DNA of 34,486 bases from a bacterium (lineage in GTDB: Bacteria > Bacteroidota > Rhodothermia > Rhodothermales > UBA10348). The notes beneath the pieces are model-generated. The model worked only from the letters and a program-made list of their open reading frames with translations, did not search any database and had not been told where the DNA came from. Shown here in pieces: positions 25 to 10,336 of this stretch; within the stretch, counting starts at the first letter, position 1, and each line of letters opens with the position of its first letter. The stretch is taken from NCBI GenBank assembly GCA_013204185.1, contig JABMOI010000239.1:1-34486 (forward strand). The letters are read 5' to 3'. The position numbers and the translations under genes are program-made.

Positions 25-1212
25 CTAGGCGTGCTGCTTGAGCGCCATGAGGATGACTCGGAGCGCCATGTTGAGCACGTCTTCCTCAATATTGAGTGGC
101 GGAGCGACGCGAATTAAGCTGTTAGAATGCAATGTCCAACCCAGCAATACTCCGTTCTCAAGACAGAACTTAGTGACCTTTTCAGTCAAGTTTGCATCGC
201 GGAGGTCCAATCCAAGCATGGCGCCTCGACCCCTAATTTCTCGAATCGAAGGATGTACGAGCGTTTCTCGGATTTGGGCCTCAATTTGAAGTGCCCTCGC
301 TGGTAGCTGCTCGTTCGTAAGGACTTCGAGCGTGGCAAGCGCGGCAGCACACGAAACAGGGTGCCCTCCAAACGTGGTCACGTGGCTCAGTGGTGGATTA
401 TCCCGTAGCGTTGCCATGATGGCGTGCGAGGACACAAATGCGCCGAGCGGCATCCCCCCTCCCATGGCTTTGGCCAGTGTAATAATATCAGGCACCACAC
501 CAAATTGCTCACAGGCAAACATAGATCCAGTCCGGCCAAAACCCGTCTGAATCTCATCGTAAATCAAAAGCGCGCCCACTTCCGAGCATCTTTTTCTAAG
601 AGCCTGATGCCAAGCCACCGAGGGTACAATGATCCCACCTTCGCCTTGAATGGGCTCAGTTATCACGCAGGCAACCGACTCGTCGATAGCCGCCAACGCC
701 TCAATGTCATTGAACGGTAGAAAGCCTACGTCGGGCAGCAATGGCAAAAACGGTTCACGGTATACCTGGCGCCCCGTTACCGAAAGCGATCCGTGCGAAT
801 CTCCGTGATAGGAGTTCTCAAAGGACATCATCCGAGTCCTTCCGGTCGCCTTTTTGGCCAATTTCAGAGCGCCTTCATTGGCCTCCGTACCCGTCATCGT
901 GAAATAAACAGAGTCCAGCCCATCGGGCAAGGCTTTGGCCAGCGCCGCTGCATACCGAGCCTGCGAACCTTGAACAAACTCCCCGTACACCATGACGTGC
1001 AGGTGCTTATCCACTTGGCGTTTGATGGCTTCAATTACCCGAGGGTGCCTGTGACCGAGAGAGGAAACGGCGATCCCACTAATCAGGTCTATGATTCGCC
1101 GACCATCTTTCAAATAGATATACGACCCGACCGCTTGGTCTACTTCGAGCCCAATTGGATTATCACTAGTCCAGGCTAGGTGCTCAGTAAATTGTTGTTT
1201 TGGGTTTTGCAC
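25..1212 (-). CDS. Class III (PLP) aminotransferase, acetylornithine/ornithine type
   Basis: This is a 395-residue fold-type I PLP enzyme that transfers an amino group from an omega-amino donor to a 2-oxo acid. The sequence shows GTEANEGALKLAK (residues 108-120, phosphate binding), SYHGDSHG (134-141), EPIQGEGG (186-193), the IYDEIQTGFGRTG block (217-229, PLP-ring Asp219), and the Schiff-base lysine K248 in LAKAMGGG. Length fits the family. The start is GTG (1210-1212); no ATG lies close enough to replace it. It diverges from the his genes. It could be acetylornithine, ornithine, succinyldiaminopimelate or GABA transaminase; sequence alone does not decide. It is not HisC, which belongs to another class. 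The fold is certain, the substrate is not. Confidence 0.88.
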   Translation of the reverse strand: MQNPKQQFTEHLAWTSDNPIGLEVDQAVGSYIYLKDGRRIIDLISGIAVSSLGHRHPRVIEAIKRQVDKHLHVMVYGEFVQGSQARYAAALAKALPDGLDSVYFTMTGTEANEGALKLAKKATGRTRMMSFENSYHGDSHGSLSVTGRQVYREPFLPLLPDVGFLPFNDIEALAAIDESVACVITEPIQGEGGIIVPSVAWHQALRKRCSEVGALLIYDEIQTGFGRTGSMFACEQFGVVPDIITLAKAMGGGMPLGAFVSSHAIMATLRDNPPLSHVTTFGGHPVSCAAALATLEVLTNEQLPARALQIEAQIRETLVHPSIREIRGRGAMLGLDLRDANLTEKVTKFCLENGVLLGWTLHSNSLIRVAPPLNIEEDVLNMALRVILMALKQHA

Positions 1213-1279: not shown

Positions 1280-1312
1280 TTGCACTATTAGGCGCGCTTA
1301 GCCCTATCTTTG
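1280..1312 (+). promoter_or_regulatory. Bacteroidota-type promoter of the his operon
   Basis: TTG (1280-1282), a 22-base spacer, and TATCTTTG (1305-1312) match the TTG-N17-23-TAnnTTTG pattern used by the primary sigma factor of Bacteroidota. Transcription would start near 1317-1320. The RNA would then open with a hairpin, CACACG (1321-1326) pairing with CGTGTG (1336-1341), before the leader peptide at 1370. Confidence 0.6.
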
Positions 1313-1369
1313 ACCTAAGTCACACGAATTCCTTCCGTGTGAGCTTCAAACTAGGGAATACAGACTTCC

Positions 1370-1492
1370 ATGACCATAATCTCACAACAAATATTGACGC
1401 AAGATGGATCTGCCAACAGATCTGTTCTCGCATGCGGTTTGTTTGCTGGATTGGGCATGCATCATGGTCATCACGTGGAGAAGTGCGACTAG
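1370..1492 (+). CDS. hisL: Histidine operon leader peptide, 40 aa
   Basis: This small reading frame runs from ATG at 1370 to TAG at 1490-1492. Near its end it encodes M-H-H-G-H-H-V-E-K-C-D, with four His codons at 1460-1465 and 1469-1474. An internal ATG at 1457 could give just the 11-residue tail. No Shine-Dalgarno is seen, as is usual for this lineage. His enrichment, the position between promoter and terminator before hisG, and the downstream pairing make it a leader for translation-coupled attenuation: stalling at His codons when charged His-tRNA is scarce would favour read-through. The role is inferred by analogy with hisL of enteric bacteria. Confidence 0.75.
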   Translation: MTIISQQILTQDGSANRSVLACGLFAGLGMHHGHHVEKCD

Positions 1493-1538
1493 GTAATCCC
1501 CGAATTTACTTGTTTCAGGGCATCCCAGTCGCGTACTT
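1481..1538 (+). promoter_or_regulatory. his antiterminator helix
   Basis: AAGTGCGACT (1481-1490) can pair with AGTCGC (1527-1532) and ACTT (1535-1538), ten base pairs with a two-base bulge. This uses the loop and inner stem of the terminator at 1519-1545, so the two folds exclude each other. An alternative upstream pairing, TCGCA (1428-1432) with TGCGA (1484-1488), would sequester the 5' strand and allow the terminator to form. This is the 1:2 / 2:3 / 3:4 logic of an amino-acid attenuator. The pairing was read by eye, without energies. Confidence 0.65.
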
Positions 1539-1557
1539 GGATGCCTTTTTTATTTTT
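1519..1557 (+). terminator. his attenuator terminator
   Basis: GGCATCC (1519-1525) pairs with GGATGCC (1539-1545). AGT (1527-1529) and ACT (1535-1537) extend the stem inside one C/T mismatch. TTTTTTATTTTT (1546-1557) follows. This is a textbook intrinsic terminator placed between the leader peptide and the hisG start at 1565, where it would stop his transcription when histidine is plentiful. Confidence 0.85.
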
Positions 1558-1564
1558 ATCAGAC

Positions 1565-2425
1565 ATGAACGACAGACTACGACTCGCGATACAGAAATCC
1601 GGACGCCTTTCGGACGATACCATTGATTTGCTGACTGCTTGCGGTATCAATATCAGCAAACCAGACAGAAAACTGAGGGCGCTGTCTGAGCATTTCAACC
1701 TCGAAGTGCTGTTTCTGCGTGACGATGATATTCCGGGATACGTTGCAGATGGCGTGGCCGACGCTGGGATCGTAGGCGAAAATGTGATCCTCGAAAAGAA
1801 CAAGCCGGTCGACATCATGGAGAGACTGGGCTTTGCCAAATGCCGCCTCTCAATTGCGCTACCTCAAACGGTGGACTACCGCTCGGTGAAGGATTTGAAC
1901 GGCCTCCATATCGCTACCTCGTACCCGGGTTTATTGGGTCGATATTTCGAATCCAATGGAGTCAAGGCATCCATCCACGAAATTTCTGGGTCGGTTGAAA
2001 TTGCCCCTGGTATTGGACTGGCCGATGGGATTTGCGACATCGTGAGCTCCGGTAGCACGTTGATTAGCAACGGGTTACGGGAAGTCGAGGTCGTAACTAA
2101 GTCGGAAGCAGTTCTCATTGCCGCGCCCACGATTACGGCTGAAAAACGAGCACGCCTAGACCGGATGTGTTTCCGCATTCAGTCCGTTTTAAAGGCCAAA
2201 CAGCACCGTTACATCCTGATGAACGTGCCAAACGAATCCATTGATGAAGTCATTAAACTGCTTCCAGGAATGAAGGCACCCACGGTGATGCCATTGGCCA
2301 CCCAGGGTTGGAGTTCTGTGCATTCGGTTATCCCTGAAAACACGTTTTGGGACGTGATCGAATCGCTAAAAAGTGTAGGTGCGGAAGGCATGTTGGTCGT
2401 TCCGATTGAAAAAATGGTGCTCTAA
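1565..2425 (+). CDS. hisG: ATP phosphoribosyltransferase, long form
   Basis: HisG condenses ATP with PRPP in the first step of histidine synthesis. The 286-residue protein opens [15 protein letters not shown] and has the binding-protein-like catalytic lobes (GIVGENVI, then [12 protein letters not shown] around the PRPP loop). A C-terminal ACT-like regulatory domain ([20 protein letters not shown] onward) marks the HisZ-independent long form that is feedback-inhibited by histidine. The start at 1565 is chosen because MNDRL fits the family and the T-run of the attenuator ends just before it; an in-frame start at 1541 lies inside the terminator stem. hisD-hisB begins two bases after the stop, so they are co-transcribed. 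Confidence 0.95.
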
Positions 2426-2427
2426 TT

Positions 2428-4281
2428 ATGATTATTGTAGATAACCCAGGTCGGGATTCGTGGGAAGATCTGTGCCTTCGAAACGACTCTGACGCGCCCG
2501 ACATCACTGAGATTGTGGCTGGTATTCTGGCCGATGTCATTTCAAATGGGGATGAAGCGCTCATTCGCCTCACTCACAAATTTGATGGCGTTACGCTCGC
2601 GTCCTTATCGGTACCGACCGCAGGCGCAACCGTGCCTCCCGAATTGGAGGAAGCAATCTTAGTGGCAAGCCGAAATATTACGGCCTTTCACCGCGCCCAG
2701 AAGGAGTCCGTCGTTGAAATTGAGACATCCCCTGGGATTCAGTGTTGGCGCAAATCTGTAGGGATTGAGCGGGTCGGTTTATACGTGCCCGGTGGCTCCG
2801 CCCCTTTGTTTTCGACCGTCCTGATGCTGGGCATTCCGGCGCAACTTGCAGGTTGTTCTGAAATCGTTCTGTTCACTCCGCCGCAAAAAGACGGCTCGGT
2901 GCATCCAGCTATTCTGTTTGCAGCCAATCAGGCCGGGATTACAGAAGTCGTGCCGGTCGGTGGCGCTCAAGCTATTGCCGCAATGGCCTACGGCACGGAA
3001 ACCATTCAGCCAGTCGACAAGATTTTCGGCCCGGGAAATCAGTGGGTGAATGAAGCCAAGAAATTAGTATCAGCGGATTCCGTGGCCATCGACCTTCCGG
3101 CCGGCCCAACGGAGGTCGCTCTACTCATTGACGACACCGCAAATCTCGAGTTTGTAGCCGCCGACATGTTGGCCCAGGCTGAGCACGACACCGTGAGTAA
3201 TGTTTTTGTTGTGGCCGTTGGAGAAGTCAACGAAAGAGAGTTAACAAGCCGCGTTGCCGATCAATTAGCTTCGCTACCGAGGGCAGATATCGCCCAAAAA
3301 GTTGTTGAACGAGCCCGAATCGTCAAAGTATCGTCTGTTGGAGATGGGATTGACCTCGTCAATATGTACGCCGCCGAGCACCTCATCATCCAAATGCATC
3401 ACGCAGAAGTGATCGCGGAACGGATTGTGCACGCCGGTTCGGTATTTATTGGGACATGGACGCCGGAATCTCTTGGGGACTACGCCTCGGGCACCAACCA
3501 CACGCTTCCTACGAATGGATCTGCACGGGCTTTTTCGGGCGTATCACTAGACTCCTTCGTACGGAAAATCACATTTCAGCGCGCCTCCCAAGCGGGACTT
3601 CAAGGCCTTGGTCCCCACGTTTCAGTGATGGCACGGGCCGAAGAATTAGTAGGTCACGCGCGAGCCGTTGAACTCCGATTGGGCGCAGATCCTGCTGACC
3701 TTTCCCGAACGGGATTTGTGCGGCGCACCACAAACGAAACAGACATTTCTGTTTTGATCGATTTAGATGGAAGTGGGCGGGCGAACTGCGAAACAGGCCT
3801 CGGCTTTTTCGACCATATGTTGGACCAAATTGCGCGTCATTCCGGAATGGATTTGAGCGTTCGGTGCGATGGCGATCTCGAAGTAGATGAGCATCACACC
3901 ATCGAGGACACCGCGATTGCGCTTGGTGAGGCCTTTGCTAAAGCGATTGGGAATAAAAAAGGAATCGGACGCTACGGCTTTACATCTCCGATGGACGATG
4001 CCTTGGCTCAGGTGGCGCTCGATCTGTCTGGGCGTAGCTGGTTGGTTTGGGATGTCGAGCTGAAGCGCGAACGAGTTGGGGATGTGCCAACAGAAATGTT
4101 CAGCCATTTCTTTAAATCCTTCTGCGACGGCGCAAAAGCAAACATCAACATATCGGCCCGCGGAGAGAATGAACACCACATTGTGGAGTCCATTTTTAAA
4201 GGGTTTGCCCGGGCGCTCGGCATGGCCATCGCGCCAACTGGCAACCCGGATATTCTACCGTCAACTAAAGGGTCGCTGTAA
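2428..4281 (+). CDS. hisD-hisB: Fused histidinol dehydrogenase / imidazoleglycerol-phosphate dehydratase
   Basis: This single 617-residue frame carries two enzymes of the histidine pathway. Residues 1 to about 420 are HisD, which oxidises histidinol to histidine: [27 protein letters not shown] (zinc ligands Gln and His), YAAEHLII (catalytic Glu-His), [11 protein letters not shown] and the C-terminal [14 protein letters not shown]. From about residue 428 the protein is the IGP dehydratase part of HisB (step 6), with both manganese motifs, [16 protein letters not shown] and [14 protein letters not shown]. No HAD phosphatase domain is present, so histidinol-phosphate phosphatase must be encoded elsewhere. 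In most operons hisC separates hisD and hisB; here the linker is under ten residues. All key residues seem intact in both halves. Confidence 0.93.
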
Positions 4282-4332: not shown

Positions 4333-4914
4333 ATGTCTGTAGCCATTCTCAAATACAACGCCGGCAACGTGCAGTCCGTCCTGTTTGCGATGAAACGCCT
4401 CGGAGTGGAGGCGCAGGTCACGAACGATCACGACGAGCTTCGCGCCGCCAGCCATGTCATTATTCCAGGTGTGGGCGAAGCGGGATCGGCCATGGCTTAC
4501 TTTCGGGAGCACGGCTTGGACACGCTCATTCCAACACTAAAGCAGCCTGTGCTGGGTATTTGTCTTGGACTTCAGGTAATGTGTGAGCACTCAGAAGAAG
4601 CCGATACGCCGTGCCTCGGTATCTTTCCTCATTCTGTTCGTCGCTTTTCTGGACCAGAGAAAGTCCCACAGGTTGGCTGGAATACAGTGGAGCACAACGG
4701 CTTAGGATTGTACAAGGGCATCGAGGGTCCGTGCTTTATGTATTACGTCCACAGCTACTACGCAGAGTTGGGACCTGCGCAAACTGGATCTTCGAAATAC
4801 ATCGTTCCATTCTGCGCGTCAATTTCCAAGGACAATTTCCACGCAGTCCAGTTTCATCCTGAAAAGAGCGCTGATGCCGGGCAGACGCTGCTTGAGAACT
4901 TCCTGGCTCTGTAA
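4333..4914 (+). CDS. hisH: Imidazole glycerol phosphate synthase, glutaminase subunit
   Basis: HisH hydrolyses glutamine and passes ammonia to HisF, which makes IGP and AICAR. The 193-residue class I glutamine amidotransferase has nucleophile Cys77 in PVLGICLGLQ and the catalytic His175/Glu177 in QFHPEKS, plus the N-terminal YNAGNVQSV and oxyanion-strand PGVGEAGSAM. Length is typical. It follows hisD-hisB by 51 bases on the same strand and is the last his gene here; its obligate partner hisF and also hisA are outside the window. Confidence 0.95.
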   Translation: MSVAILKYNAGNVQSVLFAMKRLGVEAQVTNDHDELRAASHVIIPGVGEAGSAMAYFREHGLDTLIPTLKQPVLGICLGLQVMCEHSEEADTPCLGIFPHSVRRFSGPEKVPQVGWNTVEHNGLGLYKGIEGPCFMYYVHSYYAELGPAQTGSSKYIVPFCASISKDNFHAVQFHPEKSADAGQTLLENFLAL

Positions 4915-4944: not shown

Positions 4945-5010
4945 TCACTGCTCACGATTGAGAATCTCGTCCAGAATATGACGCAGGTAACTATTGGACG
5001 AGTGAAACAT
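4945..5010 (-). pseudogene. Truncated HEPN (HepT/DUF86-like) toxin relic, 21 codons
   Basis: Overlapping the 3' end of the MNT gene in another frame is a short frame from ATG (5008-5010) to TGA (4945-4947) that reads MFHSSNSYLRHILDEILNREQ. The YLRHILDEI segment looks like the first helix of HEPN toxins (DUF86/HepT), whose genes normally overlap or follow the MNT partner. The usual protein is about 110-140 residues, so nearly the whole domain, including the RxxxxH RNase motif, is gone, and hisH begins close by. It is read as the stump of a deleted or stopped HEPN gene. Chance resemblance over nine residues cannot be excluded. Confidence 0.5.
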
Positions 5011-5308
5011 ATTCGGCTTCCTGTAAAATACTTGGCCCAATATGCCGGCTGAGTGATTCTTTGGTAACCAGTTCGACATGACGATGAAAGATGTCTTCCA
5101 ACCGAAAGCTCACGTTCATAAAGCTTTCGAAGTTTTTGCGTCCGGGAGCAAATTCAACTAACAGATCGACATCGCTTTTGTCGTGCGAGTCACCTCTCAA
5201 GAACGAGCCAAAAAGGCCGAGACGTTCCACTCCCATTTCGCGGAGTTCTGGCCCCAATTGCCGCAATCGCTCTAAAATATCTTCCTTGGTATGTACTGAC
5301 GTTTCCAT
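4991..5308 (-). CDS. Minimal nucleotidyltransferase (MntA-like antitoxin)
   Basis: This 105-residue protein belongs to the DNA polymerase-beta-like minimal nucleotidyltransferases. The core motif is LGLFGSFLRGDSHDKSDVDLLVEF: the GS-x-x-R-G loop and the two metal-binding aspartates of SDVDL, followed by a third carboxylate candidate near RHVELV. In MNT-HEPN modules the MNT protein AMPylates and silences the HEPN RNase. ATG at 5306-5308 (METSVHTKED) is preferred over an upstream alternative at 5338 that adds ten hydrophobic residues atypical for the family. The expected HEPN gene is only a stump, so this is a solitary antitoxin that may be decaying or have another use. Confidence 0.85.
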   Translation of the reverse strand: METSVHTKEDILERLRQLGPELREMGVERLGLFGSFLRGDSHDKSDVDLLVEFAPGRKNFESFMNVSFRLEDIFHRHVELVTKESLSRHIGPSILQEAEYVSLVQ

Positions 5309-5424
5309 AATGAGTAGTGTAACGAACCACACAACCAATTTGCTCCGGACATAACTAAACTTGCCTAGCTGTAAGGCCTTGTGCGACTAACGTACCGCTA
5401 TGCATGTAGCTCCAAAGCTCCAAG

Positions 5425-5733
5425 TTAGCGATATGCGTCCTTTCGATGGTCAATTGTTAGCATGTAGATCACTCCAGAGGATGGGTCCACGTGGTAGAAC
5501 AATCGAAACCGTCCAATCCGGTAACGCCAAGTATCCGGCTCATACCCTCGAAGCTTTTTGATATTCTGACCGAAGGTCGGCTCTTCTTTTAATTGGGGGT
5601 AGACGTAAATAGTTAGCTTGTTCCGAACGAATGTGATGTCTCGCCTGGTAAGGTTGTCAAGACGCTTGATGAATTCTTCCGTTTCAAAAATGCGGTACTT
5701 AGACAAATTTACCCCGCTGAGAAGTCGCGTCAT
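5425..5733 (-). CDS. RelE/ParE-family toxin
   Basis: This 102-residue protein has the RelE/ParE fold: an N-terminal helical hairpin (FIKRLDNLTRRDITFVRNKLTIYV) and then the beta-sheet core with KKLRGYEPDTWRYRIGRFRLFYHVD and the terminal IDHRKDAYR. RelE members cleave mRNA in the ribosome A site; ParE members poison gyrase. The basic and aromatic residues of the C-terminal half (RYRIGRFR, HRKDAYR) favour an RNase but do not prove it. The ATG at 5731-5733 overlaps the antitoxin gene by 35 bases. The first ten or so residues are not typical, so the true start may be further in. Confidence 0.8.
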   Translation of the reverse strand: MTRLLSGVNLSKYRIFETEEFIKRLDNLTRRDITFVRNKLTIYVYPQLKEEPTFGQNIKKLRGYEPDTWRYRIGRFRLFYHVDPSSGVIYMLTIDHRKDAYR

Positions 5734-5938
5734 TTAATCCTTTTTTTAGGCTTTTATTCAAGTCAGCGTTGGAATTAATCTCGCTCATCTCGAATTCGTC
5801 TACGTACTCATTCTCCTCAACAAATCGCAATGCGGCCGTCTCTATATAGTTGGACAACGGGCGGTTGTCGTCCTTGGCTAACAGTTTAAATCGGTTATAA
5901 ACGGCCTCATCAAGCCTCAGCGTTACTGTTTTTGACAT
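5699..5938 (-). CDS. Ribbon-helix-helix antitoxin of the RelE-like pair
   Basis: This 79-residue protein starts MSKTVTLRLDEAVYNRFKLLAKDDNRPLSNYIETAALRF, a typical ribbon-helix-helix DNA-binding N-terminus, followed by an acidic tail likely to wrap the toxin. ATG at 5936-5938 is chosen because a perfect AGGAGG (5945-5950 on the minus strand) sits six bases upstream. Such a strong Shine-Dalgarno is unusual in this window and would help make antitoxin in excess of toxin. It lies upstream of the toxin in one operon. Repeats at 5976-6005 are the likely operator. Confidence 0.82.
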   Translation of the reverse strand: MSKTVTLRLDEAVYNRFKLLAKDDNRPLSNYIETAALRFVEENEYVDEFEMSEINSNADLNKSLKKGLNDATSQRGKFV

Positions 5939-5975
5939 CACCAACCTCCTTAATTGTGCACATTATATTCGTTAT

Positions 5976-6005
5976 GAATACATAAGAACACAAACGAATA
6001 CATAA
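5976..6005 (-). promoter_or_regulatory. Direct-repeat operator before the RHH antitoxin
   Basis: GAATACATAA occurs at 5976-5985 and again at 5996-6005, a 20-base period, i.e. about two helical turns on the same DNA face. The pair lies 38-67 bases before the antitoxin ATG, in AT-rich DNA suited to a promoter. RHH antitoxins usually bind such paired sites cooperatively to repress their own operon. Confidence 0.5.
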
Positions 6006-6039
6006 AGTGTTGATTCTGGTTCCAATCTGCGCGGAGAGC

Positions 6040-6405
6040 TCAGTTTTGATTGTGACTTGAGAGCTTTTTTCCCTGGATGCTTTTTTTTAATACCCTTGCA
6101 CAGTACTTGTTAAGACTCTGCCCCTGCTGCATTGCTCTTATAGTCAGTGACTTGTGGAGGTCCTTTCCAACTCGAAGCATGAAGTTACCTGAGTAGTCCC
6201 GTCCTGCGGTTGGTGCAGGCAAGGGTTCACTGCTTGAAATAGCGTCTGTAACCCACTCCTCAACCACGTTGCACAGATCAGAATAAACCTTGGACTCTTC
6301 TGGCCCATGAACTCCTCCGTGAAATAGGCCCGGGCACGACCCCACGTAGCACTGGTCTTCTTCAGACCACTCAACAATTTTCAAATATCGATCGCTGGGT
6401 TTCAT
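6040..6405 (-). CDS. Orphan HicB-like antitoxin
   Basis: This 121-residue protein has the two-domain HicB layout. Residues 1 to about 65 (DRYLKIVEWSEEDQCYVGSCPGLF, then GPEESKVYSDLCNVVEEWV) are the partial RNase H-like domain that holds HicA. Residues about 78-115 (GNFMLRVGKDLHKSLTIRA, then SLNKYCARVLKKS) are an Arc/RHH-type DNA-binding domain. ATG at 6403-6405 is chosen because family similarity begins at MKPSDRYLKIVEW; 26 more codons upstream would overlap the operator. No HicA is seen on either side. It may be a leftover antitoxin, or a free-standing repressor acting through the palindrome at 6461-6479. Confidence 0.75.
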   Translation of the reverse strand: MKPSDRYLKIVEWSEEDQCYVGSCPGLFHGGVHGPEESKVYSDLCNVVEEWVTDAISSSEPLPAPTAGRDYSGNFMLRVGKDLHKSLTIRAMQQGQSLNKYCARVLKKSIQGKKLSSHNQN

Positions 6406-6460
6406 TGTTTGGACTCGAGTATAGCTTTGTCTATTTCGAATGGATGGCGGCATAATATAG

Positions 6461-6479
6461 TGATACCATATTGGTATCA
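6461..6479 (-). promoter_or_regulatory. Perfect palindromic operator inside the hicB promoter
   Basis: TGATACCATATTGGTATCA is a perfect inverted repeat with 8-base arms around TAT. On the minus strand a -35-like TTGATG (6478-6483) and a -10-like TATATT (18-base spacing) flank it, so the palindrome fills the promoter spacer. A repressor there would block RNA polymerase. The HicB C-terminal domain is the obvious candidate. Confidence 0.6.
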
Positions 6480-6597
6480 TCAACTTTTAATAGAAGTCGC
6501 TGCTGTATTTCGACCCCAAAAACTCTTGATGTAACTTGGAGGCGTCCATTTGATGCCCGAAATTCGCATTTAAACCCATCCAGTCTGAGTTCCGCCT

Positions 6598-10028: not shown

Positions 10029-10108
10029 AGGTCAGCGTGTTTAATGGAATCGTTATGATGGAGATCGGCTATCGGGAATTCGTTATTAAGCGCCCCGTCG
10101 GGTACCCG

Positions 10109-10336
10109 TCAAGCAGAGATATTCCCTGCTGCAAAAACGTTAGCACTCAGAGACCACCTCAACTTGCAGCGCAATACTTCGTCAAAAGATGCGTATTCAG
10201 GGACATCAACAACCAACGCAAGTGGAAACATGTCAATATATTTAATCTTGACACGCTCTTCGTTGACCGGAATCAAATCTAGATGTAATTTGAAGGCTTC
10301 GCTGAATATGTGGCCTCGGCCATTGTTCAAAAGCAC
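10109..10336 (-). other. Open frame abutting tRNA-Ser, possible gene fragment
   Basis: The 387 bases between 10028 and the tRNA hold no confident gene. One minus-strand frame reads like protein (IKYIDMFPLALVVDVPEYAS) and stays open upstream to the edge of the tRNA gene without a good start codon; GTG at 10334-10336 is the nearest. It may be the tail of a gene cut off beside the tRNA, or chance. No family was recognised. Confidence 0.2.

Follow-up and report, generated by a model that had tools for sequence, protein, structure and literature searches.

A probable histidine attenuator before the hisG gene of a Rhodothermales genome, with similar leaders in other Bacteroidota

The window, that is, the whole stretch of DNA that we have analyzed, has 34,486 nt (contig JABMOI010000239.1, assembly GCA_013204185.1, order Rhodothermales). 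Matches that carry a name also place it near Rhodothermales, Bacteroidota. A histidine operon is found close to its beginning, preceded by a short reading frame and several potential RNA stems. The features are the following:

25–1212, minus strand: class III aminotransferase gene, upstream neighbour of hisG and divergent from it
1280–1312, plus strand: predicted Bacteroidota-type promoter, TTG at 1280–1282 and -7 box TATCTTTG at 1305–1312
1354–1361, plus strand: possible segment 1, protector of the antiterminator arm, pairing with 1493–1500 (MFE fold, g1 alifold)
1370–1492, plus strand: leader peptide reading frame, 40 codons, MTIISQQILTQDGSANRSVLACGLFAGLGMHHGHHVEKCD, ATG at 1370 and stop codon TAG at 1490–1492
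1405–1424, plus strand: hairpin inside the leader, candidate RNA polymerase pause hairpin, 1405–1412 with 1417–1424 (RNAalifold of g1)
1460–1474, plus strand: His control codons CAT CAT GGT CAT CAC, His at 1460–1465 and 1469–1474
1481–1493, plus strand: antiterminator 5' arm, overlapping the leader stop codon (1490–1492)
1517–1547, plus strand: intrinsic terminator hairpin, 1517–1525 with 1539–1547
1525–1538, plus strand: antiterminator 3' arm, overlapping the terminator stem and loop
1546 to about 1558, plus strand: terminator U-run, at least four T in 14 of 14 aligned sequences
1565–2425, plus strand: hisG, ATP phosphoribosyltransferase, 286 aa, first gene of the operon (PF01634, PF08029)
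2428–4281, plus strand: hisD-hisB fusion, histidinol dehydrogenase and IGP dehydratase, 617 aa (PF00815 at 18–418, PF00475 at 456–597)
4333–4914, plus strand: hisH-like glutamine amidotransferase (PF00117)

The hisD-hisB fusion contains neither hisC nor the HisB phosphatase domain, its IGP dehydratase is the C-terminal function of HisB. It is retained in genera g1 and g9, and in two loci of other classes (L044 and L048) hisD and hisB are separate genes. Genes of the hisA/hisF type and hisI are found on other contigs, and in the rest of the genome no convincing His leader was detected in front of hisA or hisF-hisI. Positions 4991–6483, after hisH, contain small minus-strand genes: an MNT-like nucleotidyltransferase, a ParE-like toxin, a DUF6364-like gene and a HicB-like antitoxin.

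Bacteroidota promoters have the pattern TTG / TAnnTTTG. In a pattern scan, TTG 1280–1282 and TATCTTTG fit the sigma-A consensus of this phylum; a sigma-70 scan of the promoter region gave no match, as expected for the phylum. The sequence CTAT(C/A)TTNG is kept at the place of the -7 box in all 10 aligned upstream regions of g1 and g9. The promoter proposed in an earlier note, made from the sequence alone, is therefore of the Bacteroidota type and conserved in both genera, as far as can be predicted. The conserved -7 box precedes the leader, and the most likely start of transcription is therefore near 1318; the box speaks against a hisG start downstream of 1545, which the same note had named as fatal to its reading.

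The 40-codon leader with an HHGHH motif, its four His codons near the end, had also been described in that note: The coordinates are right, and the leader recurs in relatives. When the 300 nt before hisG are shuffled by dinucleotides, only 0.6% of the shuffles give four His within eight codons of a short reading frame. The recurrence in relatives, whose closest genomes are uncultured assemblies, speaks far more strongly against chance. In three genera of the family (g1, g3, and g9), 14 of 14 loci have retained a His-cluster leader, which ends 71–184 nt before hisG, and the ATGACCAT start and the CATGGTCAT block are unchanged across the five g1 loci. The leader is real, yet it is unannotated. 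Sixteen other Rhodothermia loci that we have examined (L014 and L016–L030) contain no His leader. Five of them, L017–L021, belong to the same family and share its HisG type. Among 11 further loci with a distant HisG, a His leader is found only in two, L146 and L148.

The antiterminator has ten base pairs, 1481–1490 with 1527–1538, exactly as had been claimed: They run from U1490-A1527 to G1485-C1532 and then from U1484-A1535 to A1481-U1538. Two further pairs, G1492-C1526 and G1493-C1525, are found past a bulged A1491. The terminator hairpin has in addition a small upper stem (1527–1529 with 1535–1537) and an energy of -15.8 kcal/mol when folded alone. It was said to end, with its T-run, just before hisG, and in fact the hairpin at 1517–1547 and the U-run from 1546 to about 1558 are followed by the hisG ATG at 1565. 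Both structures need the stretch 1525–1538, so they cannot coexist.

We have assessed the support for these stems by counting pairs in an alignment of 14 rows (A1, loci of genera g1, g3, and g9), with stems slid by one to three columns as a control. Duplex energy, compared with shuffled leader ends, was tried as a stem test and abandoned: Only some loci stand out singly, which is why pair counting was adopted. In the antiterminator, 92% of the cells are standard pairs (16–48% when slid), and three pairs are changed on both sides, from GC to AU and from CG to UA. Its covariation score alone is equalled in 35 of 500 column shuffles, a modest support which is due to three core pairs that never vary. 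In the terminator, 97.9% of the pair cells are formed in the 14 sequences (at most 59% when slid). The compensatory changes that the earlier note had suggested looking for are thus found in both stems. The most telling evidence is found in the shared stretch, where two columns co-vary with both partners. When alignment columns 65 and 66 change, they stay paired with both alternatives: A65 faces U25 and U78 in L001 and L002, G65 faces C25 and C78 in L004, and A66 faces U24 and U77 in L005.

A covariance model built from the 14 alignment rows (R1) was run on 60 genomes. It matched the element in two congeners outside its training rows, G005 and G002. The G005 leader, MTINNVQFALQNSPIIGTGHVHGHHFALRD, has HVHGHH and runs into hisG; the protein search had missed this hisG, as it lies at the end of the contig. 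Further matches at E above 5e-4 (G020 C103, G027, G032, and others) were taken as chance. In G002 the leader is MTINPSQKAILKGLSQWSSLHHGHYLENRG, with HHGHY and with CGGCU in place of CGACU, and there is no hisG behind it. This genome is 97% complete and gave no hisG or hisD match, while genes of the hisA/hisF type persist. Most simply, the G002 element is a relic which is losing a His codon after a loss of the operon that was probably recent. Short reading frames ending in NLDT(L/V)FVDR are found at 10037–10282 of the window and at 1725–1967 of the G002 locus (L125), in the latter case beside the lost his operon. This pair is possibly a repeated element of the genus.

Other helices may form in the leader region; the earlier note had missed two of them. 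The hairpin at 1405–1424 is 92.5% paired in five g1 sequences, with both sides changed at four of its eight pairs. Its covariation score is 0.75 (0.32 when shuffled, reached in 0 of 500 shuffles; slid versions give at most 0.14), with some selection bias remaining, as the hairpin was picked from the fold of the same g1 sequences. It is probably well placed to pause the polymerase. The second, a helix of 1354–1361 with 1493–1500, is a possible but weak candidate for a protector: 82% of its cells are paired, with no compensatory change. In g9 there is an alternative protector helix, different from that of g1. A third helix would join the start codon to the His codons (1370–1377 with 1464–1471); all eight pairs are invariant in g1, and hence uninformative. 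Bacteroidota ribosomes rarely use Shine-Dalgarno pairing.

The anatomy of the locus, its conservation and the covariation of two exclusive stems are directly supported. A reading frame with clustered His codons, a terminator before the first gene and an excluding antiterminator which reaches the stop codon are the features by which an attenuator is recognized, and we are highly confident that this region serves the hisG-hisDB-hisH operon as a ribosome-mediated transcription attenuator. We infer that it would work as follows. RNA polymerase would start near 1318 and a ribosome would begin the leader at 1370, catching up while the polymerase is probably paused by the hairpin at 1405–1424. When charged tRNA-His is scarce, the ribosome would stall at the His codons (1460–1474) and leave 1481–1490 free. 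This arm would pair with 1527–1538 once it is made, the terminator would lose these bases, and transcription would proceed into hisG. When histidine is plentiful, a ribosome at the stop codon (1490–1492) would cover the 5' arm of the antiterminator, and the 1517–1547 hairpin and its U-run would end transcription before hisG.

Folding computations, which the earlier note had proposed as a check on its attenuator reading, agree with this scheme only in part. The stems are exclusive, and the terminator has P = 1.00 when the ribosome is at the stop codon. Before the 3' arm of the terminator is made, the antiterminator has P = 0.99 in every stalled state. In the complete RNA with a stalled ribosome, on the other hand, the terminator is still favoured at equilibrium (P 0.68–0.92). 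We have therefore rejected equilibrium folding as a proof of switching: In the complete RNA it fails to yield the read-through state. As the terminator is the more stable structure there, the switch must be kinetic, by co-transcriptional trapping. In classic attenuators the choice is also made during transcription, as we propose here.

The same preference for the terminator at equilibrium might suggest that this is a constitutive short transcript or the terminator of an upstream unit, with a coincidental His cluster and a hisG transcribed from its own downstream promoter; intrinsic terminators near start codons are not rare. We consider this very improbable. The upstream gene (25–1212) is divergent, and thus leaves no upstream unit that would require a terminator at this place. 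Between the end of the U-run and hisG there are, in g1, no more than about 10 nt, too little room for a promoter. Moreover, the His cluster, the -7 box, the antiterminator, and the terminator recur jointly in relatives and in the blind match.

The reading frame might also code for a functional small His-rich protein, perhaps a metal-binding one, with the RNA structures being incidental. In fact, CATCATGGTCATCAC encodes HHGHH, which resembles a metal-binding motif. Nevertheless, apart from their start and their His block, the peptides of the 14 loci of g1, g3, and g9 vary freely in length and sequence, their position before hisG is fixed, and the final codons follow the needs of RNA pairing (CGACU/CGAUC), all of which makes a small protein extremely improbable. 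We give hardly any credence to another RNA route using the same hairpins (a T-box, a protein-binding attenuator or translational control of hisG): Alternative stems alone occur in many attenuators, but no Rfam family matches the region, T-box and His leader included, with E up to 10, the His codons of every genus lie directly 5' of the antiterminator arm, and the hisG start is outside both stems.

In the rest of the phylum, we have found His leaders before hisG in 68 of 71 loci examined; control windows of the same loci give 0–4%, and shuffles 2%. The leaders of Flavobacteriia and others, for instance MRNKNTHHHFYTCPQAR, have CUCAAGCGAGG at their end, a segment pairing with CGUUUGAG in the terminator arm. 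In a set of 40 loci, 99% of the cells of this helix pair (at most 49% when slid), with four of its eight positions free of the search anchor. Compensatory changes are found: Five loci have G-C in place of A-U, and three have U-A in place of C-G. The same attenuator logic, with a different sequence, is found in Flavobacteriia and other classes, and the device appears to be phylum-wide.

The two distant loci mentioned above, L146 (G010) and L148 (G009), belong to the same family as the window. They have His-rich leaders before a replaced hisG which is only 25–30% identical, and a GAGGCC/GGCCUC candidate for the antiterminator precedes a terminator-like hairpin. Attenuation seems to have been rebuilt there with different stems, before an apparently replaced gene. 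A broader reading, which we offer tentatively and regard as rather unlikely as a whole, is that of an unregistered, phylum-wide family of hisG attenuators whose stems have been repeatedly rebuilt while their geometry was kept, even in L146 and L148, and to which the leader of this genus would add a fold of the start codon on the His codons, gating translation.

These results suggest that classic translation-coupled attenuation likely controls histidine synthesis across much of the phylum. The His leaders of Bacteroidota are not in Rfam, and the 14 + 2 loci described here, with about 70 from other classes, are enough for a family model. The aligned set also offers cultured flavobacteria for tests of the mechanism, and the congener G002, where hisG and hisD have been lost and the retained leader is decaying, provides a natural control.

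This kind of switch is well known, and Bacteroidetes/Chlorobi were reportedly counted by Vitreschak et al., in a comparative genomics study of 2004, among the groups with candidate attenuators. A 2021 transcriptome study of F. psychrophilum describes, upstream of hisG, a structured 5' element which is conserved in Flavobacteriaceae and has no Rfam match, and gives clues to leader-peptide attenuation of amino acid operons (PMC9723704). The gene and the phylum are the same as here, the leader and stem sequences are different, and the passages on this element do not deal with Rhodothermales. It probably corresponds to the flavobacterial leaders that we have found (such as MRNKNTHHHFYTCPQAR, in which CUCAAGCG pairs with CGUUUGAG). 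The view of the earlier note that attenuators of Bacteroidota are predicted but little tested agrees with these hints on hisG and amino acid attenuation; the apparent phylum-wide extent is what we add to it, and the element of the window is a new, well-supported member of this known kind.

A 2013 survey with Rfam models suggested a possible origin of amino acid attenuators in gamma-proteobacteria (PMC3766115); this suggestion reflects the models available. The Bacteroid-trp motif (RF01692, PMC2864571) is a cis-regulatory RNA of Bacteroidetes, linked to trp by its name; it is not a his element, and it has no match in the window. Rfam gave no family for the region, either at the gathering score or with E up to 10, and the same is true of the T-box RF00230. 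RF00514 (His_leader) does not match the region, and no Rfam match was found in 11 relative loci either.

The his leader of E. coli has a run of seven His. The enterobacterial attenuator (RF00514) and the one proposed here share a His-rich leader, an exclusive antiterminator and terminator, and their position before hisG. They differ in that the element of the window does not match the model, has four His with a Gly between them, and is found with a predicted Bacteroidota promoter and an operon with a hisD-hisB fusion.
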